Shown: piece after piece, positions 30,987 to 63,866 of the stretch
Layout of the letters: each line of letters opens with the position of its first letter
Position numbering within the stretch: the first letter of the stretch is position 1
From: Aminobacter sp. HY435
GTDB lineage: Bacteria; Pseudomonadota; Alphaproteobacteria; Rhizobiales; Rhizobiaceae
DNA: 64,000 bases
Direction of reading: 5' to 3'
Assembly: GCF_027568395.1 (NCBI RefSeq)
Contig: NZ_JANKZL010000005.1
Coordinates: 310,001 to 374,000, forward strand
Notes under the pieces: generated by a model
Told to the model about the DNA's origin: nothing
The model's database searches: none
What the model saw: the letters and a program-made list of their open reading frames with translations, nothing else
Translations under genes and position numbers: made by a program

Positions 30987-31470
30987 TAGTGCCTCCCAGG
31001 TTGTTCTTTGTCGCCGGCTTGATGGTCCGCCGGCTTTCGCCCTCGACTTCAATCGCTGCGCCGCAAGAACAGTGCCGCGTCGGGGCATGTTGTAGTTGTT
31101 TGTATTGCCACCTGACGTTAACGGCAAGTATGGCCCAGATCACCCAGCGTCAGTTCAATCGAGGCTTTGCGGGAATTTTCAGGCGGCAGGCTTTGCGATT
31201 GGCTTCAGGTGCCTCGCGTCGTGGCTGGGCTCTTCGATGTCGTAGCTGAAGCTGAACAAGCGGTTTCTCATATGCGGCGCTGGAAGTCCAAATGGTCCAT
31301 CATCCAATGGAAGACGGAAATATCCGCCTGTCTACAAGTGATCTGTGGGTAAATTATCCTGCTTACCAAAGGGCAAGTAGGCGGGGAGTTCCAAAGCGGG
31401 AAAAACGGTGCTTATATGCGCGCCTGCGAGCCTGACAACTCGGGGCTTGGGAAATCATAGGGAGTGTTCA
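30987..31470. other. Intergenic region between divergent fadD and dppA
   Basis: This 484-base region holds no convincing gene. It carries the fadD translation signal (GGGAGG before the TTG), a LiuR-like palindrome at 31113-31126, and, at its right end, the dppA Shine-Dalgarno (AGGGAGTG). GC content falls noticeably between about 31260 and 31380, consistent with promoters. I see no terminator or repeat. Confidence 0.6.
31113..31126. promoter_or_regulatory. LiuR/MerR-type palindrome upstream of fadD
   Basis: TGACGTTAACGGCA fits the palindromic pattern TKMCGTWAACGKMA that also occurs before the nitronate monooxygenase gene (48446-48459) and before the LiuR-like MerR gene (63266-63279). It lies about 130 bases upstream of the fadD start. 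LiuR-type regulators are known to control branched-chain amino acid and fatty acid catabolism, so a site here makes sense. Binding is not shown. Confidence 0.5.
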
Positions 31471-33066
31471 ATGTTCAAAAAAACGACCTTTGCGGCCGCG
31501 TTGCTGGCTGCAACCGTCCTCAGCGGCGCAGCGAGCGCAAAGACGTTCGTGTACTGCTCGGAAGGTTCGCCGGAAGGCTTTGATCCGGGTCTCTACACCG
31601 CCGGAACGACCTTCGACGCTGCTGCACATACCGTCTACAACCGCCTGCTCGAATTCAAGCCGGGCACCACTGAGCCGATCCCCGGTCTCGCCGAAAGCTG
31701 GACGATCTCCGATGACGGCCTGGAGTACACCTTCAAGCTGCGTCCTGGCGTCAAGTTCCAGACCACCGAGTTCTTCACGCCGACCCGCGGGCTGAATGCC
31801 GACGACGTCGTCTTCTCCTACGAGCGTCAGCTCAAGGCCGACAATCCCTGGAACAAGTATGTTCCCGGCGGTTCGTGGGAATATGCCGCTGGCATGGGCT
31901 TCCCGGAAGTGATCAAGTCGGTCGAAAAGGTCGATGACCAGACCGTCAAGTTCACGCTGACCCGCAAGGAAGCTCCGTTCCTCGCCAATATCGCGATGCC
32001 GTTCGCTTCGATCATGTCGAAGGAATATGCCGACAAGCTGCAGGCCGATGGCAAGATGAACCAGCTGAACCAGATGCCGCTCGGCACTGGCCCCTACAGC
32101 TTCGTCGCCTATCAGCAGGACGCCATCATCCGCTACAAGGCCAACCCGGACTACTGGGGCGGCAAGCAGAAGATCGACGACCTGGTGTTCGCCATCACCC
32201 CGGACGCATCGGTTCGCTTCCAGAAGCTGAAGGCCGGCGAATGCCACCTGATGCCTTTCCCGAACGCCGCTGACGTCGCTGCGATGAAGGCTGATCCGAA
32301 CCTGAAGGTGGTCGAGCAGGAAGGCCTGAACGTCTCGTACCTGGCCTACAACACCACCCAGGCTCCGTTCGACAAGGTCGAAGTCCGCAAGGCGCTGAAC
32401 AAGGCCATCAACAAGCAGGCCATCGTCGACGCCGTGTTCCAGGGTGCCGCTTCGGTCGCCAAGAACCCGATCCCGCCGACGATGTGGTCCTATAACAATG
32501 CCGTTGAGGACGACACCTACGATCCGGATGCAGCCAAGAAGATGCTCGACGAAGCTGGCGTCAAGGATCTTTCGATGAAGATCTGGGCGATGCCGGTGTC
32601 GCGTCCCTACATGCTCAACGCGCGCCGCGCGGCCGAGCTGATGCAGGCGGACCTGGCTAAGGTCGGCGTCAAGGCCGAGATCGTTTCCTACGAGTGGGCC
32701 GAGTATCTCGACCGCTCGAAGGCCAAGGATCGCGACGGCGCCGTCATCCTCGGCTGGACCGGCGACAATGGCGATCCGGACAACTTCCTCGACACCCTGC
32801 TTGGTTGCGACGCCGTCGGCGGCAACAACCGCGCGCAGTGGTGCAACAAGGAGTTCGACGATCTGGTGACCAAGGCCAAGGAGACGACCGACCTGGCCGA
32901 GCGCACCAAGCTCTACGAGCAGGCGCAGGTGATCTTCAAGAAGGATGCTCCCTGGGCAACGATCGATCACTCTTTGTCGATCGTCCCGATGCGCAAGGGC
33001 GTCGAAGGCTTCGTTCAGAGCCCGCTCGGCGACTTCGCCTTTGAAGGTGTTGACATCGTCGAGTAA
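31471..33066 (+). CDS. dppA: Dipeptide ABC transporter, periplasmic binding protein
   Basis: A 531-residue SBP_bac_5 protein with a clear signal peptide ending ASA at about residue 24. The mature start KTFVYCSEGSPEGFDPGLYT and later blocks such as PIPPTMWSYN, WAMPVSRPY and GWTGDNGDPDNF are very close to enterobacterial DppA. The disulfide cysteines of DppA are present. It binds dipeptides (DppA can also bind haem in Escherichia coli) and delivers them to DppBCDF encoded next. The ATG at 31471 follows AGGGAGTG. A strong hairpin separates it from dppB. Confidence 0.93.
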   Translation: MFKKTTFAAALLAATVLSGAASAKTFVYCSEGSPEGFDPGLYTAGTTFDAAAHTVYNRLLEFKPGTTEPIPGLAESWTISDDGLEYTFKLRPGVKFQTTEFFTPTRGLNADDVVFSYERQLKADNPWNKYVPGGSWEYAAGMGFPEVIKSVEKVDDQTVKFTLTRKEAPFLANIAMPFASIMSKEYADKLQADGKMNQLNQMPLGTGPYSFVAYQQDAIIRYKANPDYWGGKQKIDDLVFAITPDASVRFQKLKAGECHLMPFPNAADVAAMKADPNLKVVEQEGLNVSYLAYNTTQAPFDKVEVRKALNKAINKQAIVDAVFQGAASVAKNPIPPTMWSYNNAVEDDTYDPDAAKKMLDEAGVKDLSMKIWAMPVSRPYMLNARRAAELMQADLAKVGVKAEIVSYEWAEYLDRSKAKDRDGAVILGWTGDNGDPDNFLDTLLGCDAVGGNNRAQWCNKEFDDLVTKAKETTDLAERTKLYEQAQVIFKKDAPWATIDHSLSIVPMRKGVEGFVQSPLGDFAFEGVDIVE

Positions 33067-33094
33067 GGGCGCTTAGACACGCTCAACCTTATGT

Positions 33095-33119
33095 GGGGCG
33101 CTTGTATCACAAGCGCCCC
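33095..33119 (+). terminator. Stem-loop between dppA and dppB (attenuator or mRNA stabiliser)
   Basis: GGGGCGCTTGT and ACAAGCGCCCC make a perfect 11-bp stem with a 3-base loop, 28 bases after the dppA stop. There is no run of T afterwards, so it is not a canonical terminator. Such hairpins after binding-protein genes commonly protect the upstream mRNA and lower permease expression. Confidence 0.55.
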
Positions 33120-33178
33120 ATCGCACATTATGTGCTATCCTCCCGACCTCTCGGACATTCACTCAAAAAAGGTCTGAC

Positions 33179-34183
33179 ATGCTCCGGTACCTGTTGGGAC
33201 GGCTTGCCGTCCTTATCCCGACTTTCATCGGGGTATCCATCATCGCATTCTCCTTCATCCGGCTCTTGCCCGGCGATCCTGTAGCCCTCCTGTCGGGCGA
33301 ACGCGTCATGTCGCCAGAGCGCCACGCGGAAATTTCCGCAGCACTCGGTTATGACCGTCCCATCATCATCCAGTATTTCGATTATCTGGGTGGTGTGCTG
33401 ACCGGCAATTTCGGCACCTCGATCGTCACCAAGCAGCCGATCATCGACCAGTTCTTCGTCCTGTTCCCGGCGACGATGGAACTTGCGACCTGCGCCATGA
33501 TCTTCGCGGTCGTGCTCGGCATTCCCGCCGGCATCATCGCAGCGATCAAGCGCGGCTCGTTCTTCGACCAGTCGATCATGGGGGCGGCCCTTGTCGGCTA
33601 TTCGATGCCGATCTTCTGGTGGGGCCTGCTGCTCATCATCCTGTTCTCCGGCGTGCTGCAGTGGACGCCCGTCTCGGGCCGCATCTCGCTGATGTACTAT
33701 TTCCCGCCCGTGACCGGCTTCATGCTGATCGACTCGCTGCTTTCGGGGCAGGCCGGCGCCTTCAAGTCGGCTGTCAGCCACCTGATCCTGCCGACCATCG
33801 TGCTTGGCACCATCCCGCTTGCGGTGATCGCGCGCCAGACACGCTCGGCCATGCTCGAGGTGCTCGGCGAGGACTATGTCCGCACCGCCCGCGCCAAGGG
33901 CTTGTCGCCGTTCCGTGTCATTGGCGTGCATGCGCTGCGCAATGCGATGATCCCGGTCATCACCACGATCGGCCTGCAGGTCGGCTTGCTTCTGGCCGGC
34001 GCCATCCTGACCGAGACGATCTTCTCCTGGCCGGGCATCGGCAAGTGGATGGTCGATTCCGTCTTCCGGCGCGACTATCCGGTCATCCAGAGCGGACTGC
34101 TCATCATCGCCGGTATCATCATGCTCGTTAATCTGTTGGTTGATCTGATGTACGGCCTGATCAATCCGCGCATCCGGCACTGA
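33179..34183 (+). CDS. dppB: Dipeptide ABC transporter permease
   Basis: A 334-residue inner-membrane permease with six predicted transmembrane helices. The N-terminal LLGRLAVLIPTFIGVSIIAFSFIRLLPGDP is typical of DppB. The EAA loop that docks to the ATPases is EDYVRTARAKGLSPFRVIGVHALRNAM. It pairs with DppC to form the translocation channel. It starts 112 bases after dppA and is followed 10 bases later by dppC. Confidence 0.94.
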   Translation: MLRYLLGRLAVLIPTFIGVSIIAFSFIRLLPGDPVALLSGERVMSPERHAEISAALGYDRPIIIQYFDYLGGVLTGNFGTSIVTKQPIIDQFFVLFPATMELATCAMIFAVVLGIPAGIIAAIKRGSFFDQSIMGAALVGYSMPIFWWGLLLIILFSGVLQWTPVSGRISLMYYFPPVTGFMLIDSLLSGQAGAFKSAVSHLILPTIVLGTIPLAVIARQTRSAMLEVLGEDYVRTARAKGLSPFRVIGVHALRNAMIPVITTIGLQVGLLLAGAILTETIFSWPGIGKWMVDSVFRRDYPVIQSGLLIIAGIIMLVNLLVDLMYGLINPRIRH

Positions 34184-34193
34184 GGAGAGCGCA

Positions 34194-35102
34194 ATGGCTG
34201 AAATTACCGCGACTGGTGGCCTGTCCACCGACCCTTCGCTCCGCCGCCGTCTGGCCGAGTTCTGGTACTATTTCTCCGAGAACCGCGGTGCGGTCCTGGG
34301 TCTCATCGTCTTCGTGCTGCTGGTGATCGTTGCGCTGTTTGCGCCGCTGATCGCCCCGCACGCAGCTGACATGCAGTACCGCGATGCGGTGCTGCTGCCG
34401 CCCGCATGGGACGCCGGGGGCAACACGAGCTTCCTGCTCGGCACCGATCCTGTCGGCCGCGACCTGCTTTCGCGCCTGATCTACGGCGCACGCTACTCGC
34501 TGTTCATCGGCGTGGTCGTCACCACGGTGGCCGTTATCGGCGGTGTTCTGGTCGGCGTCATCGCCGGCTACTACCGCGGTTGGGTCGACACCGTGATCAT
34601 GCGCGTCATGGACATCATCCTGGCGTTCCCGTCGCTGCTTCTGGCCCTGGTGCTGGTGGCGGTGCTTGGACCTGGCCTCACCAATGCGATGATCGCCATC
34701 GCGCTTGTCATGCAGCCGCACTTCGTGCGCCTGACCCGTGCTGCGGTGATGACAGAAAAGACCCGCGACTATGTCACGGCGGTGAAAGTCGCCGGCGCCA
34801 GTCCGTTTCGCCTGATGTTCAAGACCATCCTGCCGAATTGCATGGCGCCGCTGATCGTTCAGGCGACGCTGTCGTTCTCCAACGCCATCCTCGACGCGGC
34901 CGCTCTCGGCTTCCTCGGCATGGGCGCCCAGCCGCCGACGCCGGAATGGGGCACCATGCTTGCCGAGTCGCGCGAGTTCATCCTGCGCGCCTGGTGGGTC
35001 GTGACCTTCCCCGGTCTTGCCATCCTGATCACCGTGCTTGCCATCAACCTCATGGGTGACGGCCTGCGCGATGCGCTCGATCCCAAGCTGAAGAGGTCGT
35101 GA
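34194..35102 (+). CDS. dppC: Dipeptide ABC transporter permease
   Basis: A 302-residue permease. A cytoplasmic N-terminus leads to the first helix (GAVLGLIVFVLLVIVALFAPLI). The LLGTDPVGRDLLSRLIYGAR block and the EAA loop RDYVTAVKVAGASPFRLMFK are DppC hallmarks. GGAGAGCGCA just before the ATG supplies the ribosome binding site. It partners DppB, and its stop codon is 2 bases before the preferred dppD ATG. Confidence 0.94.
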   Translation: MAEITATGGLSTDPSLRRRLAEFWYYFSENRGAVLGLIVFVLLVIVALFAPLIAPHAADMQYRDAVLLPPAWDAGGNTSFLLGTDPVGRDLLSRLIYGARYSLFIGVVVTTVAVIGGVLVGVIAGYYRGWVDTVIMRVMDIILAFPSLLLALVLVAVLGPGLTNAMIAIALVMQPHFVRLTRAAVMTEKTRDYVTAVKVAGASPFRLMFKTILPNCMAPLIVQATLSFSNAILDAAALGFLGMGAQPPTPEWGTMLAESREFILRAWWVVTFPGLAILITVLAINLMGDGLRDALDPKLKRS

Positions 35103-35104
35103 CG

Positions 35105-35956
35105 ATGGCCCTGCTCGAAATAGAAAACCTCGTCGTCGAGTTCGAAACCTCAACCGGCCCGTTCCGCGCGGTCGATGGGGTTTCGATCAAGGTCGACAAA
35201 AGCGAAGTGCTGGCCATCGTCGGCGAAAGCGGTTCCGGCAAGTCGGTCTCGATGCTCGCCTGCATGGGGCTGCTGCCCTGGACGGCGAAGGTCACGGCCG
35301 ACAAGATGCTGTTCGACGGTCGCGACCTGCTGAAGCTCAGCGACAGCGAACGCCGCAAGATCATTGGCAAAGAGATCTCGATGATCTTCCAGGAGCCGGT
35401 GGCCAGCCTCAATCCGTGCTTCACCGTCGGCTTCCAGCTCGAGGAAGTCCTGCGCGTGCATATGGGCATGGACCGCACGCAGCGGCGTGCCCGCGCCATC
35501 GAGCTGCTGACGCTGGTCGGCATCCCCGAGCCGGAAGAGCGCCTGCGCTCCTACCCGCACCAGATGTCGGGCGGCCAGTGCCAGCGCGTGATGATCGCCA
35601 TCGCCATTGCCTGCAATCCCAAGCTTCTGATTGCCGACGAGCCGACGACTGCGCTCGACGTCACGATCCAGAAGCAGATCCTCGACCTGCTGGTCGGGCT
35701 GCAGGACAAGTACGGCATGGGCCTGATCATGATCACCCACAACATGGGTGTCGTGGCTGAAACCGCCGACCGTGTCGTGGTCCAGTACAAGGGCCGCAAG
35801 ATGGAGGAAGCCGACGTGCTGTCGCTCTTTGAATCGCCGAAGAGCAACTACACGCGCGCGCTGCTGTCCGCCTTGCCGGACAACGCCACGGGCGACCGCC
35901 TGCCGACCGTCTCCGACATGATGTTTGAACCGGCACCATCAGGAGCCGCCGAATGA
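35105..35956 (+). CDS. dppD: Dipeptide ABC transporter ATP-binding protein
   Basis: A 283-residue ATPase: Walker [10 protein letters not shown]-loop [10 protein letters not shown], signature LSGGQ-equivalent [12 protein letters not shown], Walker [13 protein letters not shown], and an H-loop ITHN. The oligopeptide/dipeptide C-terminal extension is short and lacks the usual cysteine cluster that binds Fe-S in some DppD proteins. A GTG at 35099 overlapping the dppC stop is an alternative start. It pairs with DppF. Confidence 0.92.
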
Positions 35957-36786
35957 CCAAGGTTCTCGAAGCCAAGAATATCGTCCGCGACTATCACGTG
36001 CCCGGCGGCATGTTCCGCCCGGCGCGTACGGTGCATGCCGTCAAGGGCGTCAGCTTCTCCGTCGATCGCGGCAAGACGCTGGCCATCGTCGGCGAAAGCG
36101 GCTGCGGCAAGTCGACCCTTGCCCGGATCGTCACCATGATCGACGCGGCGACCGCCGGTGACCTTTTGATCGACGGCAACAAGGTCGACATCGCCAAGGA
36201 AAAGCTGACATCCGAGATGCGCCGCAAGGTCCAGATCGTGTTCCAGAATCCCTACGGCTCGCTCAACCCGCGCCAGAAGATCGGCGACGTGCTGGCCGAG
36301 CCGCTGCTCATCAACACCGACGTTCCGGTCTCCGAGCGGCGCGACCGCGCCATGACGATGCTCAAGAAGGTCGGCCTGGAAGAAAAGCACTTCAATCGCT
36401 ACCCGCACATGTTCTCGGGCGGCCAGCGCCAGCGCATCGCCATTGCGCGCGCGCTGATGCTCAACCCGAGCCTTCTGGTGCTCGACGAACCGGTTTCGGC
36501 GCTCGACCTTTCGGTGCAGGCACAGGTGCTCAACCTGCTCGCCGACCTGCAGGACGAGTTCCAGCTGACCTACGTCTTCATCAGCCACGATCTCAGCGTC
36601 GTGCGCTACATCGCCGACGATGTGATGGTGATGTATTTCGGCGAGGCGGTGGAATACGGCAGCCGCGACGAGGTGTTCTCCAACCCGCAGCACAGCTACA
36701 CCAAGACGCTGTTTGCCGCGACGCCGCGCGCCGACGTCGAAAGCATCCGCGCTCGCATCGCCAGGAAGCAGGCAGCCGCGGCTTAA
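35953..36786 (+). CDS. dppF: Dipeptide ABC transporter ATP-binding protein
   Basis: A 277-residue ATPase with Walker A GESGCGKST, Q-loop FQNPYGSLNPRQ, signature FSGGQRQRIAIARAL, Walker B LLVLDEPVSALD and H-loop ISHD. It overlaps dppD by 4 bases (ATGA). It is the last gene of dppABCDF: a strong terminator follows at 36840-36873. The opening KNIVRDYHVPGGMFR is usual for DppF. Confidence 0.93.
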   Translation: MTKVLEAKNIVRDYHVPGGMFRPARTVHAVKGVSFSVDRGKTLAIVGESGCGKSTLARIVTMIDAATAGDLLIDGNKVDIAKEKLTSEMRRKVQIVFQNPYGSLNPRQKIGDVLAEPLLINTDVPVSERRDRAMTMLKKVGLEEKHFNRYPHMFSGGQRQRIAIARALMLNPSLLVLDEPVSALDLSVQAQVLNLLADLQDEFQLTYVFISHDLSVVRYIADDVMVMYFGEAVEYGSRDEVFSNPQHSYTKTLFAATPRADVESIRARIARKQAAAA

Positions 36787-36839
36787 GACGCAGTCGAATC
36801 CGGACGCGTTTCGGATTTGTCTTTGTGGAACAGTCCATT

Positions 36840-36873
36840 GGGGCATGACGGCTCAGCTCGTCATGCCCCTTTT
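36840..36873 (+). terminator. Rho-independent terminator after dppF
   Basis: GGGGCATGACG (36840-36850) and CGTCATGCCCC (36859-36869) form a perfect 11-bp stem with an 8-base loop, followed by TTTT. It lies 53 bases after the dppF stop and separates the two ABC transporter operons. Confidence 0.9.
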
Positions 36874-37009
36874 GAGTTCGCAGCGAGCACAATGTTTTGG
36901 GCCACGGGCCGTAAACGCCAATTTCGTCTCTCGCAAAACGTCTGTCGACGATCATAATCCTCCCATCATTTTGACTTTGGCCGGCGGGACGCGGGCAAGG
37001 AGGCTGATT

Positions 37010-38617
37010 ATGGCGGGTTTCGAAATTTCGCGGCGCAAGGTGCTGGCCGGGTCGGCGTTCCTTCTGGCATCCACCGCGCTGCCGTCGTTCGGCTGGACGC
37101 AGGAGAAGAAGGGTGGCCGTCTGGTCGTCGCAGCCGATTCCGAGCCGCGCAACCTCAATCCGGCGATCGTCGCGTCCAATGGTGTCTTCTTCATTTCCAG
37201 CAAGGTGGTCGAGCCGCTGGCCGAAGCCTCATTCGACGGCAAGGACGGGCTTGCTCCGCGCCTTGCGACGTCGTGGGAGGGCTCGGATGACGGCCTATCG
37301 GTAACCTTCAAGCTGCGCGAAGGGGTGACTTGGCACGACGGCAAGCCGTTCACCTCGGCCGACGTCGCCTACTCGGCGCTCAGCGTCTGGAAGCCGCTAC
37401 AGAATCTCGGCCGCGTCGTGTTCAAGGATCTGGAGGCCGTCGAGACGCCCGATGACCACACCGCGGTCTTCAAGTTCTCCAGGCCGACGCCGTTCCAGTT
37501 GATCCGCAACGCGCTGCCGGCACTGACTTCGGTGGTGCCCAAGCACATTTACGAAGGCACCGACATTGCCGCGAACCCGGCCAACAATGCGCCTGTCGGC
37601 ACAGGGCCGTTCAAGTTCGCCGAACACAAGCCGGGTGAATATTACCGGCTCGAGCGCAACGACAACTACTGGGGCGAGGGCGAGCCGCAGCTTGACGAGA
37701 TCATCTATCGCGTGCTGCCCGACCGGGCGGCGGCGGCCGGTGCGCTCGAGGCCGAGGAAATCCAGCTGGCCGCATTCTCCGCCGTTCCGCTGGCCGACCT
37801 CGACCGAATTTCCAAGGTTCCGGGCATCAAGGTCATTCCCGAGGGTTATGAGGCACTGACCTATCAGCTTGTGGTCGAGATCAACCATCGCCGCAAGGAA
37901 CTGGCCGATGCCAAGGTGCGCCAGGCCATCGCTCATGCCATCGACAGGGACTTTGTCGTCAAGACGATTTTCCTCGGCTACGCCAAGCCGTCGACCGGGC
38001 CAGTGCCGCAAAACGACAAGCAGTTCTACACCGCCGATGTGGCGACCTACGCTTTCGACGTGGCCAAGGCCAACGCGCTGCTCGACGAAGCCGGCTATCC
38101 GCGCGGCGACAACGGCAAGCGCTTCAGCCTCAAGCTGCTGCCGGCACCCTATTTCAACGAGACCAGGCAGTTCGGCGACTACCTGCGCCAGGCGCTGGCC
38201 GAGGTCGGCATCGACGCCGAACTGGTCAACAACGATTCCGCCGCGCACCAAAAGGCCGTCTACACCGACCATGCCTTCGACCTGGCCGTCGCGCCGCCGG
38301 TGTTCCGTGGCGACCCGGCGATCTCGACGACCATCCTGGTCCAATCGGGCATCGCCGACGGTGTGCCGTTCTCCAACCAGGGCGGCTACAAGAACGCCGA
38401 CCTCGACGCGCTGATCGCCAAGGCAGCCGAGACCATCGATCCGGCAGCGCGCATCGGACTCTACAAGGACTTCCAGAAAAAGGTCACGGAAGACCTGCCG
38501 CTGATCAACGTCGCGGAGTGGGGCTTCATCACGGTTGCTCGCGACAACGTCAAGAATGTCGCAAACAACCCGCGCTGGGCGGTTTCGAACTGGGCGGACA
38601 CCTATGTCGAAACGTGA
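37010..38617 (+). CDS. ABC transporter substrate-binding protein, family 5, Tat-type signal
   Basis: A 535-residue periplasmic binding protein. The start ATG at 37010 is preceded by AAGGAGG. The N-terminus has a twin-arginine motif (SRRKVL) before a hydrophobic core (AGSAFLLASTALPSFG), suggesting Tat export. The family-5 domain follows: DSEPRNLNPAIVASNGVFF, then FKLREGVTWHDGKPFTSADV. It resembles binding proteins of D-Ala-D-Ala/glutathione-like importers but is not DppA. It heads a five-component transporter operon ending in an ATC-hydrolase-like gene. Confidence 0.88.
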   Translation: MAGFEISRRKVLAGSAFLLASTALPSFGWTQEKKGGRLVVAADSEPRNLNPAIVASNGVFFISSKVVEPLAEASFDGKDGLAPRLATSWEGSDDGLSVTFKLREGVTWHDGKPFTSADVAYSALSVWKPLQNLGRVVFKDLEAVETPDDHTAVFKFSRPTPFQLIRNALPALTSVVPKHIYEGTDIAANPANNAPVGTGPFKFAEHKPGEYYRLERNDNYWGEGEPQLDEIIYRVLPDRAAAAGALEAEEIQLAAFSAVPLADLDRISKVPGIKVIPEGYEALTYQLVVEINHRRKELADAKVRQAIAHAIDRDFVVKTIFLGYAKPSTGPVPQNDKQFYTADVATYAFDVAKANALLDEAGYPRGDNGKRFSLKLLPAPYFNETRQFGDYLRQALAEVGIDAELVNNDSAAHQKAVYTDHAFDLAVAPPVFRGDPAISTTILVQSGIADGVPFSNQGGYKNADLDALIAKAAETIDPAARIGLYKDFQKKVTEDLPLINVAEWGFITVARDNVKNVANNPRWAVSNWADTYVET

Positions 38618-38685
38618 CATCATCGCCCCACCCTGGACGATGATCAGTTCGTAAGAATGCTCCTGGAAATTGCAGTGCCTGAATG

Positions 38686-43318: not shown

Positions 43319-43338
43319 AGTTTCCGTTGACGGAAACT
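43319..43338. promoter_or_regulatory. ArsR-type operator, distal copy
   Basis: AGTTTCC-GTTGAC-GGAAACT: perfect 7-bp arms with a 6-base spacer, and symmetry extends to 11-bp arms (43317-43327 and 43330-43340). The half-sites and spacing are identical to those of the copy at 43368-43387. The centres are 49 bases apart. Confidence 0.6.
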
Positions 43339-46706: not shown

Positions 46707-47153
46707 ATGCAATTTCTGGATATCGGTGAAGTCGCCGCGCGCACGGGCGTCCCGCCATCGACCCTGCGCTATTACGAAGAGATCGGGCTGATTGCCGCGC
46801 TCGGCAGGCATGGTCTCAGGCGCCAGTTCGACAACGACGTCCTGCTGCGTCTGGCGCTGATCGGCCTTGGCAAGGCGGCCGGCTTCTCGCTGACCGACAT
46901 CGCGGGCATGTTCGGACGCGACGGCAGGCCGGACATTCCCCGCCAGCTGCTGCACGCCAGGGCCGACGAGTTGGAACGGCAGATGCGCGATCTGCGCCTG
47001 CTTCGCGACGCACTGCGCCATGTTGCCGATTGTCCGGCGCCGTCGCATCTGGAATGCGCAAGTTTCCGCCAGCTGCTGAAGTCGGCGACGCACGGCAGCG
47101 TGGCCGCGCGCAGCCGCACCGCGACCGGGCTCAAGCGACCGAGTCGAGGCTGA
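46707..47153 (+). CDS. MerR-family regulator of the divergent MFS gene
   Basis: A 148-residue MerR protein: FLDIGEVAARTGVPPSTLRYYEEIGLI is the winged helix-turn-helix and about residues 80-110 form the dimerisation coiled coil. The C-terminal part carries CPAPSHLEC, which is not the SoxR [2Fe-2S] motif. Its start is beside a SoxR-like dyad in the 67-base divergent region, so it probably activates the MFS gene and represses itself. Inducer unknown. Confidence 0.88.
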   Translation: MQFLDIGEVAARTGVPPSTLRYYEEIGLIAALGRHGLRRQFDNDVLLRLALIGLGKAAGFSLTDIAGMFGRDGRPDIPRQLLHARADELERQMRDLRLLRDALRHVADCPAPSHLECASFRQLLKSATHGSVAARSRTATGLKRPSRG

Positions 47154-47466: not shown

Positions 47467-48420
47467 TCAGGCGAGGCGGGCCTTTGCCGCTGCATACTCG
47501 CTGGCCAGGCGCTCGACCAGTTCGGCCGCCGGCACCACCTTGCCGACGGCGCCGATGCCCTGGCCGCAGCCCCAGATGTCCTTCCAGGCCTTGTATTTGT
47601 TGTCGCCGTCGAAATCCATGTGGCTCGGATCGGAGACGGCGAGGTTGTCGGGGTCCATGCCGGCGGCGCGGACCGAGCCCTTCAGGTAGTTGCCGTGGAT
47701 GCCGGTGAAGAGGTTGGAATAGACAATGTCGGCTGCCTTGGACTCGACGATCATCTGCTTGTAGGCGTCGGCCGCGCGGGCTTCTTCGGTGGCGATGAAG
47801 GGCGAGCCGATATAGGCGAGATCGGCGCCCATGGCCTGTGCCGCGAGCACCGCGCCGCCATTGGCGATGGCGCCTGACAGCAGCAGCGGTCCGTCGAACC
47901 ACTGGCGGATTTCCTGGATCAGCGCGAATGGCGACAGCGTGCCGGCATGGCCGCCGGCGCCGGCGGCCACCGCGATCAGCCCGTCGGCGCCCATCTTGAT
48001 CGCCTTGCGCGCGTGGCGGTCGTGGATGATGTCGTGCAAGACGATGCCGCCATAGGAGTGCACGGCCTGGTTGACCTCCTCGACCGCGCCGAGCGACGAG
48101 ATAACGATCGGCACCTTGTACTTCACGCACAGGCGCAAATCGTGCTCGAGGCGTGTGTTCGAGCGGTGGACGATCTGGTTGACGGCGAAGGGTGCCGCCG
48201 GCTGGCCAGGATTGGCGGCGTCGTGAGCGGCGAGTTCTTCGGTGACCTGAGCCAGCCATTCGTCGAGCTGCGCCTCGGGGCGGGCGTTCAGCGCCGGGAA
48301 CGAGCCGACGATGCCGGCCTTGCATTGCGCCAGCACCAGCGGCGGGTGCGAGATGATGAACAGCGGCGCGCCGACAACGGGAATGCGCAGGTTCTTTTTC
48401 AGGACATCAGGCAGCGCCAC
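47467..48420 (-). CDS. Nitronate monooxygenase (2-nitropropane dioxygenase-like)
   Basis: A 317-residue FMN-dependent TIM-barrel protein. The start is a GTG at 48420 preceded by GGGAGAA. Motifs are IPVVGAPLFIISHPPLVLAQ, VNQIVHR, the flavin phosphate loop AAGAGGHAG, and LSGAIANGGAVLAAQAMGADL. Nitronate monooxygenases oxidise alkyl nitronates such as propionate-3-nitronate, and homologues also act in fatty-acid-like metabolism. A LiuR-like palindrome lies 26-39 bases upstream of its start. It is divergent from a hypothetical membrane protein gene. Confidence 0.88.
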   Translation of the reverse strand: MALPDVLKKNLRIPVVGAPLFIISHPPLVLAQCKAGIVGSFPALNARPEAQLDEWLAQVTEELAAHDAANPGQPAAPFAVNQIVHRSNTRLEHDLRLCVKYKVPIVISSLGAVEEVNQAVHSYGGIVLHDIIHDRHARKAIKMGADGLIAVAAGAGGHAGTLSPFALIQEIRQWFDGPLLLSGAIANGGAVLAAQAMGADLAYIGSPFIATEEARAADAYKQMIVESKAADIVYSNLFTGIHGNYLKGSVRAAGMDPDNLAVSDPSHMDFDGDNKYKAWKDIWGCGQGIGAVGKVVPAAELVERLASEYAAAKARLA

Positions 48421-48445
48421 GCTATTCTCCCACGAATTTTGACGT

Positions 48446-48459
48446 TTCCGTAAACGTCA
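48446..48459. promoter_or_regulatory. LiuR/MerR-type palindrome before the nitronate monooxygenase gene
   Basis: TTCCGTAAACGTCA fits TKMCGTWAACGKMA, as do the sites before fadD and before the LiuR-like gene. It is part of a longer perfect dyad, TGACGTTT-CCGT-AAACGTCA (48440-48459). It lies in the divergent region, 26 bases from the monooxygenase start, and could also affect the gene at 48579. Confidence 0.55.
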
Positions 48460-48578
48460 TATCTATACCAGATGCCGCCTCGACGGCAATGCAGGCTGAT
48501 CGCGGCGATTCGCCGGCTCCATGGCAAAGATGCGGTCCTCATCGACGCTATTGTATCGGCTTTGGCGACAAAACGCTG

Positions 48579-57312: not shown

Positions 57313-57339
57313 CCAACTCAATAAGTTGGAGCGTCCTTT

Positions 57340-57359
57340 GTGCGTCCATCCGGACGCAC
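57340..57359. terminator. Hairpin between convergent pdeM and TIGR02186 genes
   Basis: GTGCGTCC and GGACGCAC form a perfect 8-bp stem with a 4-base loop. A T-run is missing on either side, so termination would be weak or Rho-assisted. Its position between two convergent genes supports a bidirectional terminator. Confidence 0.4.
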
Positions 57360-57391
57360 GGCGGGCACGAGGCGCGGCATGCCGCCAGCCC

Positions 57392-58177
57392 TCAATCCTT
57401 GCGGAAGATGATCCTGCCCAGCCAGCCGGTGAACATCGCCAGCCCGATGGCGAAAAGGCCGTAGCCGAAGCCGTGGTCGGTGGCGAAGCGGTAGATGGTC
57501 TGTTCGAAGCCCGACTTGACGATGGCCAACTGGGTCGAGGTTTCCTTGACGAACAGGCCGTTGCGAAACAGGAAGGCCCGCGCCTTGTGCGTGCCGACCG
57601 GCACGTTTGGCGCAAGATGCAGCGTCGCCCGGAACAGGTTCTGCGACAGGAACTGCACGCCGCCGATATTGTCCGAGTAGAGGCCAAGCGCTTCCTTGCG
57701 GTCGCGCAGCGCATCGGTGAATTCCTGGATGGTGATCGGGCTGTCGCGCTTTTCCTCGGGCTCGAGGTAGATGTTGGGAATGCCCAGCGACAGCTGCTTG
57801 TAGCTGTTGGGGGTGGTGATGTCCTGCGGCGGTCGCGTCGTCGCCATCGAGTAAGACACCGGTACGTTGATGAAGGTCTCGGAGCGGGTGTTGATCCACA
57901 TGCCAAGGATCCGATCCTTGCGGCGCACCACGACCGAGCGCGCCGGCCCTTCCAGCACGACGACGACGTCGTAGCGGCCCTGGCGGTTGACCTGCGGATC
58001 GGTGTTTTCCAGCGCACCGAAGATGGTGAGATCGGCGCCAGAGAAGTCGGCCGTGATCGAGACGCGATCGGTGGACAAGCCGATCTGGATGTTTTCGGTC
58101 GGCGCGCCGTCCTTGATCTGGGCGCGCGCCGGCGCTGCCGCGGCGAGCAGGGCTAGGGCGAGCGCCGCAATCCTCAT
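57392..58177 (-). CDS. TIGR02186-family membrane-anchored periplasmic protein
   Basis: A 261-residue protein with a signal peptide (1-19, ending APARA), a large periplasmic beta-rich domain and a C-terminal transmembrane helix (about 233-255, GYGLFAIGLAMFTGWLGRII). Features such as IGLSTDRVSITADFSGADLTIFG and RSVVVRRKDRILGMWINT match the TIGR02186 family, which is almost always next to a TauE/SafE transporter. Its ATG overlaps the upstream transporter gene's stop by 4 bases, so the two probably form a complex. Function unproven. Confidence 0.85.
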   Translation of the reverse strand: MRIAALALALLAAAAPARAQIKDGAPTENIQIGLSTDRVSITADFSGADLTIFGALENTDPQVNRQGRYDVVVVLEGPARSVVVRRKDRILGMWINTRSETFINVPVSYSMATTRPPQDITTPNSYKQLSLGIPNIYLEPEEKRDSPITIQEFTDALRDRKEALGLYSDNIGGVQFLSQNLFRATLHLAPNVPVGTHKARAFLFRNGLFVKETSTQLAIVKSGFEQTIYRFATDHGFGYGLFAIGLAMFTGWLGRIIFRKD

Positions 58178-59103
58178 AGCGAAAGCCCGCTGACGCTGGT
58201 CAGCGAATAGAGGTTCTGCGGCTTGACGAAAAGGTCGAAGCCAAGGCGCAGGGCAACCGCTAGGACCAGCAGGGCCAGCAGCGCGCGCAACTGTTCGCCG
58301 CGCAGTTTCTGGCCGGCCTTGGCGCCGTATTGCGCGCCGGCAACGCCGCCCAGCATCAGCACGAGCGCCAGCACGATGTCGACGGTCTGGTTGGTCGTCG
58401 AATGCACCAGGGTGGTGAAGGCCGAGACGACGACGATCTGGAACAGCGAGGTGCCAACGACGACGTTGGTCGGCACCTTGAGCAGGTAGATCAGCGCCGG
58501 AACCATGATGAAGCCACCGCCGACGCCCATGATCGCCGACAGGAAGCCGATGCCCGCGCCGATGCCCAGCACCGGGATGACCGAGACGAACAGTTTCGAG
58601 GTGCGGAAGCGCATCTTGAACGGCAGGCGGTGGATCCAGTTGTGCTGGCCGGACTTCTTCAGCGCCGGCGGCACCCCGCCCTTGGTCAGGCGCAGCGCAT
58701 TGACGCTTTCAATCAGCATCAGGCCGCCGACCGTGCCGAGCAAGACGACGTAGAGCAGTGAGATGAACAGATCGAGCTGGCCGATGGCGCGCAGCAGGGC
58801 GAAGACGAAGCCGCCGGCGGCCGAGCCGGCGATGCCCCCGATCAGGAGCACCGTGCCGAGCTTGAAGTCGAGCGTGCCGCGCTTGAGATGGGCGAGAGCG
58901 CCGGAGAACGACGAGGCGATGACCTGGTTGGCGCCGGTGGCGACAGCGATCGCAGGAGGAATGTTGTAGAAGATCAGAAGCGGCGTGATCAGGAACCCGC
59001 CGCCGACGCCGAACATGCCCGACAGGAAGCCGACCGCCGCGCCCATTGCCAGGAGCACGAACGCATTGACAGACATTTCTGCAATCGGGAGATAGATGCC
59101 CAC
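58174..59103 (-). CDS. TauE/SafE-family sulfite/organosulfonate exporter
   Basis: A 309-residue membrane protein with eight predicted helices in two repeats. Each repeat has the GxxxGxxxGxGGGF/ITPL pattern (VGFLSGMFGVGGGFLITPLL near residue 22, GFLSAIMGVGGGFIMVPALI near 185). Family members export sulfite, sulfoacetate or related anions. The pairing with TIGR02186 is typical. No sulfonate catabolic genes adjoin it, so the anion is uncertain. Confidence 0.88.
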   Translation of the reverse strand: MGIYLPIAEMSVNAFVLLAMGAAVGFLSGMFGVGGGFLITPLLIFYNIPPAIAVATGANQVIASSFSGALAHLKRGTLDFKLGTVLLIGGIAGSAAGGFVFALLRAIGQLDLFISLLYVVLLGTVGGLMLIESVNALRLTKGGVPPALKKSGQHNWIHRLPFKMRFRTSKLFVSVIPVLGIGAGIGFLSAIMGVGGGFIMVPALIYLLKVPTNVVVGTSLFQIVVVSAFTTLVHSTTNQTVDIVLALVLMLGGVAGAQYGAKAGQKLRGEQLRALLALLVLAVALRLGFDLFVKPQNLYSLTSVSGLSL

Positions 59104-59245
59104 CCGTCAGTCTCTGCAATAGGAGTTATGCCGTCGCCCGTTTCCGGGTGCCGGTTAGCTAGCGGTTACTTGCGCCGACATTGCGGCGAAGTCAAACGCA
59201 CTGCGCTCGAAACGGAAAATAACTCAATCAGTTAACCGCCAGGTA

Positions 59246-59274
59246 AAGACGGCGGCGGGAAATGACGCCGTCTT
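59246..59274 (-). terminator. Terminator of the PodJ-like gene
   Basis: AAGACGGCG (59246-59254) and CGCCGTCTT (59266-59274) are perfect 9-bp arms, 5 bases after the stop codon on the minus strand. The second arm runs into TTTACC, a weak T-tract. Confidence 0.65.
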
Positions 59275-59279
59275 CGCGC

Positions 59280-62200
59280 TCATTTGCGCGCAATCAGTGC
59301 TTCGACGACGGCGGTGTCGATCTCGCCGGTCGAGGCAAGACCGTTGTCCTTCTGGAAGGCGGCGATCGCGTCCTTGGTCTTCTGGCCCATCATTCCGTCG
59401 GCCTTGCCGGCCTCGTAGCCATTCTTGTTGAGGATGGCCTGGACGTTCTGGATGGCCTTTTTCATATCGACGCCGGCCGCCGGGGCGTCCTGCCAGTTGG
59501 CCGGAACGTCGATCGAATTGGAGGCCGGATCGAGCGCCTTGGCCTGCCACAGTTCGGTCGCCGCCTTGGCGCGCTTGAGCTGCTCGGGGTTGAGCGCCTT
59601 GGCGATCTCGTCACGCTTGGAGGCGGCGTCTGCGTCGCCCTGCTTGGCAACCAGTGCGAACCACTTGTAGGACTCTTCCAGGTCCTGCTGCATGCCGACG
59701 CCCTTGGCGGCGAGGATGCCGAGATTGAACTGGCTGTCCTTGACGCCGAGTTCGGCAGCGCTGACGAACCACCGCGTTGCGGTGTCGTTGTCGACGGTGC
59801 CGTCGGCGCCCATGGCCAGCAGCACCGCGAGATTGTGCATGGCGCTGGCGTTGCCCTGCGCGGCTGCAAGCTGGTACCAGGTCTTGGCCTTGGCCACGTC
59901 GCGGTCAACGCCGTTGCCCTTTTCATACATGTTGCCAATGCGATACTGCGCCGGCGCGAAACCAAGCTCGGCGGACCTTTCGTACCAGGCTGCCGCCGTC
60001 TTGACGTTTGCGTTTAGCCCGCGCGCCTCGGCATAGCGCGAGCCGATCTCGAACAGCGCCTTGGCGTCGCCGCCATTGGCCGCGTCGCGCAGTGCCGAAG
60101 GCACCGCGTCTGGCACTGACAGCGCTGCAGCTTCGATGGCTTCACCAGCTGGGCGAATGGTCTCGTCTACCGCCATCCTTGCAGGGATGGACTGCGTGCT
60201 GGCGTGGTCGAGCGCGACTTCGACGGGAACGGAAACCTGCATCTCGTCCGTGGAGCTTGCTTCCGAAGCGATATCGTCAACCGTTGCCGGCGCGTCGACA
60301 TTGCGAACCGTGGCGGCAGCTTCATCGAGAGGCTTGGCTGCGGCAATCCTGGCCGGCTCGGTGGCGGGCGGCAGGGTGACCGAAGCCGTCTCGACCGGGT
60401 CGTTGAGGAAAGCCTTGCCGAGCTGCATGCCGGCGAGCGCCAACATCACCGCTCCCGCGGCCATCAACACCGACTTGCGGCGCGCCTTCAGCAGGTCGCC
60501 GATGCGCAATGCGCGCACGGGTCCCTTGAGGTCGGATGTCCGCTTCAGTGTGTCGGCCTCGGCCGCAGCCGCCTGTGCGGCGCGCCGGGCGGCGGCGATG
60601 AAGTCCGCCTTGGCGGCGTCGCCTTCGGTTGCGCGCGCCGGCTGGCCGCGCTCGTCGCGAACGCGGCGCATGATGGCGTTGAGGTCGGGTGCTCCAGAGC
60701 CGGGTTCGAGCGGGCGGTTGGCGATCTTGGGGTCGAGCGGCGCATCGAGCGCCACGGCAGGCACCTCGACTTCGACCGTCGGCTCGACCACGTCGATCAC
60801 TTGTGCCTGGGGCTTCTTCGCAAAGGCACGGGCAAGGCCGCCGAGCATCGACGGCTTGGCGGGCTTCTGGTCCTTCTTGTCGGCGCGTACGCCTTCCAGC
60901 GCGGCGACCGCGGCGGCGGCTTCCGACGCTGCCTGCGCAGGGCTGCGCGAGTGGCGGTCGCTCTGGTCGACCGGTTCGCCGCGACGGCCAAAATGGGCGT
61001 GGGCTTCGGGCAGCGGCGCAGGTTCATCCGGAACCAGCGACGGCGTGTCGCTCAACGCCAGCTTGGTTTCGGCGGCCGCAGGAGCGAGCAGTTCGGCGAC
61101 CGAGGCCGGAGGGGCGTCGGACGACGAGGGATCGTAGCGTTCGAGCGAGCCCAGGCGGTCGACGATCTTGAGCAAGGTGTCATGGATCGCCTCGAAGGTC
61201 TTGCCGTTGCGTTCGTCCGAGCGGCGGGTCAGCGTCTCCAGCGCCTTGAGGTCCTGCGCCAGTCCTTCGACTGCGCTCGAGTCGCTTGCGCCGGAACCGC
61301 TCAGGGAATGCACGGCGTTCTCGGCCGCCTGGCGGGCGGCTTCCAGGATCGCCTGATGGTTGCTGGCGATCGAACGTTCGATGTCGTCGAGGCGCGGACG
61401 GACGTCTTCAAGCTCGGGCAGCGGCGAAGCCGGGTGCGCGAGATGGTTGGACAGCCCACTGACCTGCGCTTCAAGGCTGCGGATCAGATCCGGATCGATG
61501 CCCGACACCTGAGCCGCCGACATTTCGAGGCGGCTGGAAATGTCTTCGAGACGCGCTTCGAGGCCGCGCATCGCCGTTTCGGTGGCGGGATCGGCGCGAT
61601 TGGATTCGAGACGCTGGGCGAAGGCGGTGAAACGGGCGTCGATCGCCTCCATGATGCCCGACTGGTCGGCCGCAGGCTGGTTTGCCTGGCGGTCAAGGCG
61701 GTCGCCCAGCTCTTCCAGGCGGCGTTCGAGATCGCGGAACAGAGCGTTGCCGTGCTCGACGGCATCGCCCTGGCGACGCTGGAAAACGTCGGCAAGCGCG
61801 TCGAACCGCTGCTCGATGCCCTGGAAAATGAGGTTGGCGTCCGGTGTTGAGGGCGTGCGTTCGATCTTGTCGGCGATCAGCGATATCTGGCGGCCGAGGC
61901 GTTCGATCGCCTGATCTGGGACATCGGAGCGCGCGGCGATATGGTCGACACGGTCCGACAGCATGTTGAGCCGTTCGATGATCTCGACGGACGGCTGATC
62001 GGCGGTGACTTCCTCGATCTGCAGGGCAAGTGCTGCGATGCGCAGTTCGATGCGCTCGAACGGCGCCGGGTCGAAATGCGGTGTCTGCGCTGCGACCGTC
62101 GAGGCGACGATGGCGCGCGAGATTTCGTCGAGCCGCTCGTCGATCAGGCCGAACATCTCGTCACTATGGCCGTCGCGCTGGCGCACGAATTGTTCGACCG

Positions 62201-62981
62201 CGCCCGAAAGCGTGCGGACCTTGTCTTCGATCGAGCGCAAGGACAGCGATTCCGGCAGGCCGTTGACCGCGTCGTTGATCTGCTCGAGGCGGGCTGCAAG
62301 CGCTGCAAGAGCAGGGTCTTCGCCACGCTGGTTCTGGCTGGTTGCCATGTGGGCGGTGAAATCCGTCCAGCGGCGGTCGAAATCGTCCCAGCGGCGGTCG
62401 ACCGAGCGCAGCGTGTCTTCGCGGGCAAGGCTGGCGAGCGAACCGCGAACCTGTTCGAGTTCGAGACGCAGCATGTTGACGCTCTTGTCGTCGCTGCGTT
62501 CGGCAAGCGAATGGATGGCGCCGGACAGGCGTTCGAGCTCGTGTCCAAGTTCGGCGGCTTCGGCACCGGCCGCGCCTGCTTGTGCGACACGGCCAAGGTC
62601 CTTGCGCAACATGTCGAATTCGCGCTGCAGACCAGCCGTCATCTGGTGACGCATCTCCTCGCGCAGCGCGCGCAATTCGCCGGCGATCTTGCCTACCGCT
62701 GCCACGCCGTCTTCCTGCCCGCGCATGCGGTCGATGTCGCGCGCGATCGTCTGGTAGGGACGCTCGTAGGGTGCGCTGCGGCCGTATTCGCCGCGCGGCG
62801 CGTAACCGGGGGCGGGCGCCTGGCGCTGTGCGGGGCGATAGGGATCCGCCGGTTCGTCGCGCCTGCGTTCAAGCCGTGCTTCGAGGTTTTCGAGCGAGCG
62901 GTTGAGCTCGTCGAGCGACGCATGCGGGCGGCGCTGCCTGCCGTCGTTGAGGGTGTCGAGATAAGACCGCTTGCTGTTCAT
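59280..62981 (-). CDS. podJ: PodJ-like polar localisation factor with Sel1 repeats and peptidoglycan-binding domain
   Basis: A 1233-residue protein. Residues 1-700 are mainly coiled coil (for example SLENLEARLERRRDEP and many LE..L/R repeats). A Pro/Ala-rich linker leads to one transmembrane helix (about 833-855, VLMAAGAVMLALAGMQLG). The periplasmic part has Sel1-like repeats (about 968-1130; ALFEIGSRYAEARG, APAQYRIGNMYEKGNG) and a C-terminal peptidoglycan-binding domain (1173-1233; DGMMGQKTKDAIAAFQKDNG). This architecture is that of PodJ, which marks the new pole and recruits cell-cycle and envelope factors in alphaproteobacteria. A terminator follows. Confidence 0.85.
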   Translation of the reverse strand: MNSKRSYLDTLNDGRQRRPHASLDELNRSLENLEARLERRRDEPADPYRPAQRQAPAPGYAPRGEYGRSAPYERPYQTIARDIDRMRGQEDGVAAVGKIAGELRALREEMRHQMTAGLQREFDMLRKDLGRVAQAGAAGAEAAELGHELERLSGAIHSLAERSDDKSVNMLRLELEQVRGSLASLAREDTLRSVDRRWDDFDRRWTDFTAHMATSQNQRGEDPALAALAARLEQINDAVNGLPESLSLRSIEDKVRTLSGAVEQFVRQRDGHSDEMFGLIDERLDEISRAIVASTVAAQTPHFDPAPFERIELRIAALALQIEEVTADQPSVEIIERLNMLSDRVDHIAARSDVPDQAIERLGRQISLIADKIERTPSTPDANLIFQGIEQRFDALADVFQRRQGDAVEHGNALFRDLERRLEELGDRLDRQANQPAADQSGIMEAIDARFTAFAQRLESNRADPATETAMRGLEARLEDISSRLEMSAAQVSGIDPDLIRSLEAQVSGLSNHLAHPASPLPELEDVRPRLDDIERSIASNHQAILEAARQAAENAVHSLSGSGASDSSAVEGLAQDLKALETLTRRSDERNGKTFEAIHDTLLKIVDRLGSLERYDPSSSDAPPASVAELLAPAAAETKLALSDTPSLVPDEPAPLPEAHAHFGRRGEPVDQSDRHSRSPAQAASEAAAAVAALEGVRADKKDQKPAKPSMLGGLARAFAKKPQAQVIDVVEPTVEVEVPAVALDAPLDPKIANRPLEPGSGAPDLNAIMRRVRDERGQPARATEGDAAKADFIAAARRAAQAAAAEADTLKRTSDLKGPVRALRIGDLLKARRKSVLMAAGAVMLALAGMQLGKAFLNDPVETASVTLPPATEPARIAAAKPLDEAAATVRNVDAPATVDDIASEASSTDEMQVSVPVEVALDHASTQSIPARMAVDETIRPAGEAIEAAALSVPDAVPSALRDAANGGDAKALFEIGSRYAEARGLNANVKTAAAWYERSAELGFAPAQYRIGNMYEKGNGVDRDVAKAKTWYQLAAAQGNASAMHNLAVLLAMGADGTVDNDTATRWFVSAAELGVKDSQFNLGILAAKGVGMQQDLEESYKWFALVAKQGDADAASKRDEIAKALNPEQLKRAKAATELWQAKALDPASNSIDVPANWQDAPAAGVDMKKAIQNVQAILNKNGYEAGKADGMMGQKTKDAIAAFQKDNGLASTGEIDTAVVEALIARK

Positions 62982-63178
62982 CGAAACGCCCGTTGGTCGG
63001 AGTGCTGGTCGGGTCCAGAGATCTCAAAGCCTTGCCGGGATCAGAAGTAGCGATGCGCCTCATGGAAAGCCTGGCTTCCGGGCACTTCGCCGCCCTCCGG
63101 AACCGTGAACAATTCAATACTTGATGACCACGGTGGAACCGACATGCGCACATTTCCCCGAACGTGGTAAACAAGCCC

Positions 63179-63192
63179 TTAACCAAACTTAA
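63179..63192. promoter_or_regulatory. CtrA-like site upstream of podJ
   Basis: TTAACCAAACTTAA has two TTAA half-sites spaced by 6, one short of the CtrA consensus TTAA-N7-TTAA, though TTAACC matches the strong half-site. podJ is cell-cycle controlled in Caulobacter, so such a site would be expected. The spacing deviation keeps confidence low. Confidence 0.3.
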
Positions 63193-63265
63193 GAATGTGC
63201 GACGTTCTGTTACCCTTTTGCCAGTCGATTTCCCTTGCGTAGGGTGGGCGTCATCGCTATAGCAT

Positions 63266-63279
63266 TTACGTAAACGTAA
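63266..63279. promoter_or_regulatory. LiuR/MerR-type palindrome before the LiuR-like gene
   Basis: TTACGTAAACGTAA is an inverted repeat (TTACG-N4-CGTAA) and fits TKMCGTWAACGKMA, the pattern shared with the sites before fadD and the nitronate monooxygenase gene. It lies about 130 bases before the regulator start, consistent with autoregulation. Confidence 0.55.
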
Positions 63280-63410
63280 GACGTGCGCAGAACCGGCGTC
63301 TTGAGTGCATTTACACAGAAACCATGATCGCAGGCCCGCCCCCCTTCGGCCTTGGATCAGAGCACTGCAGGCCCAGCCGCCGTGCTCGCAATTGGGGATA
63401 TCGGAAGTAG

Positions 63411-63866
63411 ATGATGAAGCTTGTTTCGGTCGCCGATGCTGCGGCCAATGAAAACAATCTGGCTGGTGACGATTATGTACGCATCGGCGAGATGGCGAAG
63501 AAGTTTGGCGTCACGCTGAGGACGCTGCGCTTTTATGAAGACAAGGGGTTGCTCAACCCCAAGCGCGAGGGGTCGACCCGCCTGTACACGCGGCGCGACC
63601 GTGCCCGCCTGAAGCTGATCCTGCTCGGCCGCAAGGTTGGTTTTTCGCTGCGCGACGTCAAGCAGATGATCGATCTGTACGATCCGACCGGCACCAACGC
63701 CAAGCAGCTGCGCCTGACCATCGACAAGTCGGAAAAGCAGCTCGGCCGCCTGCAGAAGCAGCGTCAGCTGCTCGACGATGCGATCGGTGAACTGAACGAG
63801 CATCTGGCCATTGTGCGCCGCTTGCTTGCCGACCGCACCACGTCGCCGGCGACGGCTGCGGGCTAA
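63411..63866 (+). CDS. LiuR-type MerR-family regulator
   Basis: A 151-residue MerR protein. A short N-terminal extension (1-20) precedes VRIGEMAKKFGVTLRTLRFYEDKGLLNPKR (wHTH), then LYTRRDRARLKLILLGRKVGFS and a C-terminal coiled coil (KSEKQLGRLQKQRQLLDDAI). The RLKLIL-G-K-x-GFSL-x-(D/E)-(V/I) segment is characteristic of the LiuR/AtuR group, which controls branched-chain amino acid, terpene or fatty acid catabolism. No such pathway genes adjoin it, but matching palindromes lie before fadD and the nitronate monooxygenase gene. Two adjacent ATGs are possible starts. Confidence 0.85.
   Translation: MMKLVSVADAAANENNLAGDDYVRIGEMAKKFGVTLRTLRFYEDKGLLNPKREGSTRLYTRRDRARLKLILLGRKVGFSLRDVKQMIDLYDPTGTNAKQLRLTIDKSEKQLGRLQKQRQLLDDAIGELNEHLAIVRRLLADRTTSPATAAG

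Follow-up and report, generated by a model that had tools for sequence, protein, structure and literature searches.

A probable LiuR-type regulon of fatty-acid oxidation in Aminobacter sp. HY435 with a nitronate monooxygenase gene among its putative targets

In a 64,000-nucleotide stretch of the Aminobacter sp. HY435 genome (hereafter the window; contig NZ_JANKZL010000005.1, positions 310,001 to 374,000), fadD, a gene annotated as nitronate monooxygenase (NMO) and the LiuR-like MerR gene merR_A are each preceded by a copy of one palindrome. The three copies belong to a set of 11 operators accepted in the genome, eight of which are located outside the window. Judged from sequence and conservation, the sites very probably serve a LiuR-class MerR regulator as operators; this regulator most likely represses fatty-acid β-oxidation and reactions draining its products. 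The genes behind them would form a fatty-acid-oxidation regulon of the LiuR type, probably under repression. Such control is of a known kind, and here it would extend to the NMO, a flavin enzyme about which little is understood. Five operators keep their place across the genus, those before fadE and NMO in much of the family Rhizobiaceae. The original prediction had described a regulon of three sites. The sites themselves are real, the LiuR-like MerR gene is preceded by an operator, and fadD and the NMO gene hold up as targets, whereas three as the number of sites was wrong.

The analysis covered the genome assembly of the strain (G000; 4,597,216 bases in 29 contigs, numbered C, with the window at C24:310001-374000). 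Within the window, the three 14-mers proposed to share one palindromic pattern all match TKMCGTWAACGKMA exactly (31113-31126, 48446-48459 and 63266-63279) and are its sole exact matches; none was found in 100 dinucleotide shuffles. In the whole genome, the exact pattern occurs at seven places (10 strand-matches) against none for the reversed-pattern control, which is not the random frequency that would have spoken against a regulon. Alignment of the genome places gave a better motif, TKACGTWWACGTMA, which in some places is doubled to a 20-bp palindrome, TGACGTTTnCGnAAACGTMA. Three genome places match the 16-bp core of this 20-mer exactly, namely the NMO site (48440-48459), C24:374009-374028 and C28:244206-244225. 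Over 41 genomes, TKACGTWWACGTMA was found exactly 109 times compared to 13 for the reversed control, and the 20-mer with at most one mismatch was detected at 130 places in 89 of 121 family genomes (reversed control 0). A weight matrix was trained on 139 sites of relatives (55 distinct), which included their NMO and MerR sites and excluded their fadD sites. In the window, it ranked the MerR site first (28.4), the NMO site second and third in two registers (25.4/21.1) and the fadD site fourth (15.4), while the maxima of 100 first-order shuffles averaged 9.0 and went up to 17.6. Because the highest shuffle maximum exceeds the fadD score, the fadD site draws its support from conservation.

Outside the window, TKMCGTWAACGKMA is present without mismatch upstream of mdh, sucC and sucD (C27:122075), of an acyl-CoA dehydrogenase and an enoyl-CoA hydratase gene (C28:53152), of the gene for the ETF-ubiquinone oxidoreductase (ETF-QO; C28:237763) and of a gene encoding an SCP2-domain protein (C29:104719). 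Sites with one mismatch were accepted upstream of a fadE-like acyl-CoA dehydrogenase gene (C24:374009-374028), between valS and the gene of a FadL-like porin (C22:55093), 43 bp upstream of a DUF2147 gene (C28:244206-244225) and upstream of a second MerR gene, merR_B (C11:445019). The fadE and merR_B sites are backed by conservation, the fadL and DUF2147 sites by position and motif. The fadE gene begins 248 bp past the merR_A stop codon, beyond the window. Downstream of it, in the same orientation, are a second acyl-CoA dehydrogenase gene (acdH), a thiolase gene (NF006090, 735.8 bits, cut-off 514) and a gene for a FadB/FadJ-like protein of 739 amino acids, whose best model is NF008363 (584.8 bits, below the cut-off of 869). 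Genes around the sites were called with a codon-usage picker, as picking the longest open reading frame (ORF) was misled by frames on the opposite strand.

Assignment of the targets by Pfam and NCBIfam placed the operators before fatty-acid β-oxidation genes and before the regulator's own gene, as is said to be typical of LiuR-type regulons in alphaproteobacteria. The palindrome is common to genes of activation and uptake (fadD, the FadL-like porin), of oxidation and of electron transfer (ETF-QO), as well as to those of the SCP2 protein, mdh-sucC-sucD, NMO, DUF2147 and the two MerR proteins. The oxidation-spiral genes behind it are the fadE-acdH-fadA-fadB cluster and the acyl-CoA dehydrogenase gene accompanied by the enoyl-CoA hydratase gene. 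Of the two pathways first suggested for the regulon, fatty acid catabolism is supported by these positions, whereas branched-chain amino acid catabolism is not: no gene annotated beside the 11 operators is named for the degradation of branched-chain amino acids, with the substrates of the acyl-CoA dehydrogenases not resolved and liu genes not located. A gene for a branched-chain amino acid ABC (ATP-binding cassette) binding protein (NF011933, below cut-off) starts approximately 1.07 kb from the DUF2147 site.

The clustering before acyl-CoA genes that had been put forward as a check was found genome-wide, and it extends to relatives. All 46 exact TKACGTWWACGTMA places in nine further genomes from the genus (G001-G009) were fetched, and 41 of them precede orthologs of five targets of the strain, at similar distances within each group: the SCP2 gene (nine sites, 105-191 bp), mdh (nine, 173-175 bp), the ETF-QO gene (eight, 139-146 bp), the acyl-CoA dehydrogenase gene (eight, 86-98 bp) and merR_A (seven of the nine genomes, 130-132 bp). 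Identity within the genus was 0.95-1.00 in the operators and 0.56-0.83 in the flanks, a comparison biased by the choice of loci by the exact pattern. We therefore relied on NMO, fadD and fadE, whose loci were picked by protein. The NMO site (at most two mismatches, no more than about 65 bp from the matched start) was present in 19 of 23 loci (L054-L076), those with 75-100% protein identity, and in none of the four loci at 51-72% identity. Its conservation gives good support to the placement of the NMO in an acyl-CoA regulon. In Sinorhizobium meliloti Ak57, TTGACGTTTACGAGAACGTCAA lies before the NMO gene, with two mismatches per 14-mer. The fadD site TGCCGTTAACGTCA is identical in all nine genus loci (L176-L184, own locus included), and a site with at most one mismatch precedes fadD in six of 13 other family loci (L188-L191, L194, L195; distance 139 bp in L188). 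The fadE site, again with at most one mismatch, was found in all 20 family loci with at least 69% identity. The scoring covered neither the NMO loci L077-L083 (≤45% identity) nor the fadE loci L262-L265 (<50%).

Table 1. Coordinates of operators, putative promoter elements and genes in the window
Feature	Position	Strand	Basis
fadD operator TGCCGTTAACGTCA (gene strand)	31113..31126	-	exact pattern, matrix, conservation
putative fadD -35, TTGCCG	31122-31127	-	left arm of the operator forms part of it
putative fadD -10, TACAAA	31099..31104	-	17 bp from TTGCCG; consensus scan without null model
fadD, long-chain-fatty-acid-CoA ligase	28764..30986	-	NF005463 1025.5 bits (cut-off 869); PF00501, PF13193
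NMO operator, 20-bp palindrome TGACGTTTACGGAAACGTCA	48440..48459	-	pattern, arm pairing, conservation
putative NMO -10, TATAGA	48462..48467	-	consensus scan without null model; operator directly downstream
putative NMO -35, TTGCCG	48484-48489	-	16-bp spacer to TATAGA
nitronate monooxygenase/FabK-like FMN enzyme	47467..48420	-	GTG start after GGGAG; PF03060 72.6 bits (cut-off 28)
merR_A operator TTACGTAAACGTAA	63266..63279	+	exact pattern, matrix, conservation; putative autoregulation
possible merR_A -10, TATAGC	63258..63263	+	read by eye; not the best-scoring pair of the scan
possible merR_A -35, TTGCGT	63235-63240	+	17-bp spacer to TATAGC
merR_A, LiuR-like MerR "type A", 151 amino acids	63411..63866	+	PF13411, PF00376, PF09278; tree; fadE synteny

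The NMO operator is a longer unit than the 14-mer first stated for it, with fully complementary arms of 8 nt (48440-48447 and 48452-48459). The NMO protein reached 68.6 bits with the NCBIfam model of FabK, far under the cut-off of 453.1; among solved structures, FabK enzymes come nearest (5gvj, E 2.7e-18), and PA1024 is more distant (5.9e-8). The NMO is tied to fatty-acid oxidation solely through its putative regulation. For fadD, the probable start is the TTG codon at 30986, which is preceded by GGGAGG; the ATG at 31089 is out of frame and was rejected. The three domain models of merR_A all scored above cut-off, which places the protein in the MerR family, and it is 86-89% identical to its relatives in Aminobacter species (L113-L118).

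Two kinds of LiuR-like regulators were distinguished. Type A, represented by merR_A, adjoins fadE in most loci examined. Type B, represented by merR_B (C11:444497-444880, beside mgtE), is a paralog with 35% identity to type A. The 41 genomes searched include 25 of the family; type B was found in 23 of these, and the two without it measure ≤2.0 Mb. A tree separates type A, type B and a fadD-linked set, with an unsure root and several unsure long branches. Among the 41 genomes, 13 with both types hold 64 exact sites, 11 with type B only hold 31 (two of these assemblies are merely 81 and 85% complete), six with type A only hold 12, and four with the fadD-linked group only hold two; seven in which no type A, type B or fadD-linked relative was found have no exact site. 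In the 121 family genomes, where the types were labeled by E-value cuts and match counts and not by trees, the 20-mer with at most one mismatch was present in 51 of 52 genomes with a strong type A, in 31 of 44 with type B only and in none of the six without any type (all ≤2.0 Mb). A strong type A is the best predictor of the operators.

In the top-scoring promoter pairs, 10 of the 11 operators overlap or abut the −35 or the −10 box. The best-scoring −35 box coincides with the left arm of the operator in six of the 11 cases (fadD, fadE, acyl-CoA dehydrogenase, SCP2, fadL and merR_B). In front of mdh, the ETF-QO gene and the DUF2147 gene, the predicted −10 box or the spacer overlaps or abuts the operator, and the NMO operator begins just past the putative −10 box. 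The fadL start used in the scan was a guess, so that the distance given there is wrong; the sequence suggests a start near L044:4969. A MerR activator is expected to sit in a promoter spacer of 19-20 bp. The operator placements fit repression by occlusion, in which a MerR dimer on the −35/spacer or the −10/start region would block RNA polymerase. Relief of the repression may come from an acyl-CoA or a related intermediate, and the regulator would limit its own level through the site upstream of its gene.

Several observations weigh against these interpretations. With one mismatch, TKMCGTWAACGKMA is not enriched genome-wide (31 strand-matches vs. 39 for the reversed control); therefore, weight was given only to exact or conserved sites. 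Four of the accepted operators (fadE, DUF2147, fadL and merR_B) are such one-mismatch places. The promoter scan is a weak consensus score calculated without a null model, and for merR_A it puts the best-scoring pair on the upstream side of the operator, although another pair, picked out by eye, would adjoin the operator. With up to two mismatches, the fadD site is absent from seven of the 13 other family loci. Among six order-level fadE loci, the site stands directly before fadE in one, before the neighboring MerR gene in four and in neither position in the remaining one, which has no site. The other five exact genus sites (L277, L279, L287, L292 and L305) are located at an SQS_PSY/FA_hydroxylase locus. 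The three of these loci tested (L277, L279, L305) have a squalene/phytoene synthase gene and/or an FA_hydroxylase-family gene beside the site, and the ORF layout of L287 and L292 is similar. The seven genomes without sites comprise three reduced ones (1.1-2.0 Mb) and four of 3.0-5.1 Mb. The 20-mer was found in only seven of 19 family genomes with a remote A-like protein, and type A is not required for the operators, because the 20-mer is kept in 31 type B-only genomes. The site of the type B gene itself deviates in 22 of 24 loci as a TGACTT- or TTACTT-type variant, which in 16 of these 22 reads TGACTTTTACGTAA or TTACTTTTACGTAA; L228 has the standard form and L229 no site. In Paracoccus ferrooxidans, two tandem MerR genes (L269:3504-4426) precede a β-oxidation operon with acyl-CoA dehydrogenase, thiolase and 3-hydroxyacyl-CoA dehydrogenase genes, and this stretch contains no site with up to two mismatches.

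The MerR protein of the window had originally been taken as the reader of the sites, which is not supported: type B occurs in all but two of the 25 family genomes searched, and the 11 of these genomes in which no type A was found still have exact sites. Type B could instead be the main, family-wide reader, with the MerR of the window as a lineage-specific paralog in an accessory or modulating role; this is a serious possibility, to which we give somewhat less than even chances. It would account for the type B-only genomes, in which the fadE operator is kept in 8/8 cases with a fadE ortholog of at least 69% identity and the NMO operator in 7/7 with an NMO ortholog of at least 75%. It agrees less well with the greater frequency of the 20-mer in genomes with a strong type A, with the linkage of type A to fadE, with the T carried by type B's own operator where the others have G, and with the exact sites in order-level genomes that contain type A and lack type B (G030, G031, G034, G036 and G038).

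It is less certain that the two paralogs, fadE-linked type A and mgtE-linked type B, share the operator set in Aminobacter. We tentatively suggest that two diverged LiuR-class MerR paralogs may read one set of operators, by which fatty-acid oxidation in Rhizobiaceae would answer two signals, and that the NMO/FabK-like flavoenzyme may count among the family's core β-oxidation genes; its substrate could be an uncommon or toxic acyl-CoA, for instance a nitronate. It seems unlikely that type A is the sole reader and that type B has a small regulon of its own: the adjacency of type A to fadE, where in most loci each of the two genes has a site upstream, the near-constant 20-mer in strong type A genomes and the variant in the type B promoter would all be explained, but the sites of the 31 type B-only genomes would be left without a known reader. 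A reading of the recurring words as parts of promoters or as CpG-rich palindromes that arose by chance, without a common regulator, is hardly credible, because the six −35 coincidences and the lack of one-mismatch enrichment are opposed by the reversed controls, the recurrence before the same genes, the functional coherence of the targets and the conservation of the NMO operator, which is not a −35 box.

LiuR orthologs reportedly control fatty-acid degradation in alphaproteobacteria, and the regulon proposed here shares with them the bacterial class, the regulator family and the pathway. AtuR, with which LiuR had been paired in the original prediction, is a TetR-family protein, so that this pairing is doubtful. 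LiuR is listed among MerR-type regulators with branched-chain amino acid utilization as its role, covering 103 genomes of 15 taxa (PMC5343134). The LiuR of gamma- and betaproteobacteria resembles the system described here as a MerR-family regulator of acyl-CoA catabolic genes, and in Shewanella it is described as a repressor (PMC3223726); it differs in that it controls the branched-chain amino acid operons ldh, liu, ivd and bkd there, of which none was identified behind the sites reported here. The regulons of FadR, PsrA and FadP have the same role in the control of fatty-acid degradation (PMC5343134), yet these regulators are GntR or TetR proteins, whereas the regulator genes adjoining the sites encode MerR proteins. 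At a LiuR-looking locus of Sphaerotilus, the same 20-mer stands beside a MerR gene (39% identical protein) next to thiolase and acyl-CoA dehydrogenase genes: TGACGTTTACGTAAACGTAA is positioned directly behind the MerR gene, and directly in front of that gene is a site with one mismatch. The accessible parts of PMC9611204, PMC8637051 and PMC3562072 yielded nothing on alphaproteobacterial LiuR. No paper linking LiuR to nitronate monooxygenase was found in the open-access literature searched, although such a link may still be published.

Further candidates were rejected. The fourth, weaker match proposed at 36908 is located one base off, at 36907-36920, and its two mismatches and a matrix score of 3.8 (rank 12 in the window) are attributable to chance. 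Upstream of a glutathione S-transferase gene, the match at 43322-43335 (TTCCGTTGACGGAA, score 15.0, rank 5) was not accepted, as its arms read GTTTCC/GGAAAC. A second palindrome of this kind follows before the same gene, and the two possibly belong to another regulator. The one-mismatch places C11:337509, C24:405814, C25:403420 and C27:229211 were not accepted either, nor were C11:511542 and C28:132812, which lie inside called genes. Some neighboring features are of note. In the genus, FadD carries an Ala/Lys/Pro-rich N-terminal tail of about 188 residues in this strain (30423-30986, minus strand); relatives have tails of varying length, and those of several other genera are short. Close to the NMO gene lies a further gene of the MerR family (46707-47153, plus strand), which is distant from the LiuR-like group (34% identity, E 4e-9). 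Divergently oriented from merR_A is a gene for a protein of 1233 amino acids (59280-62981, minus strand) with Sel1 repeats and a C-terminal peptidoglycan-binding domain, which we take to resemble PodJ; this Sel1-repeat protein adjoins merR_A in many Aminobacter and Mesorhizobium loci.

A testable regulon is now defined for Aminobacter and much of its family. Through conserved regulation, it links fatty-acid oxidation with an orphan flavoenzyme that carries the annotation nitronate monooxygenase, and the obvious neighboring regulator may not be the sole reader of the sites.

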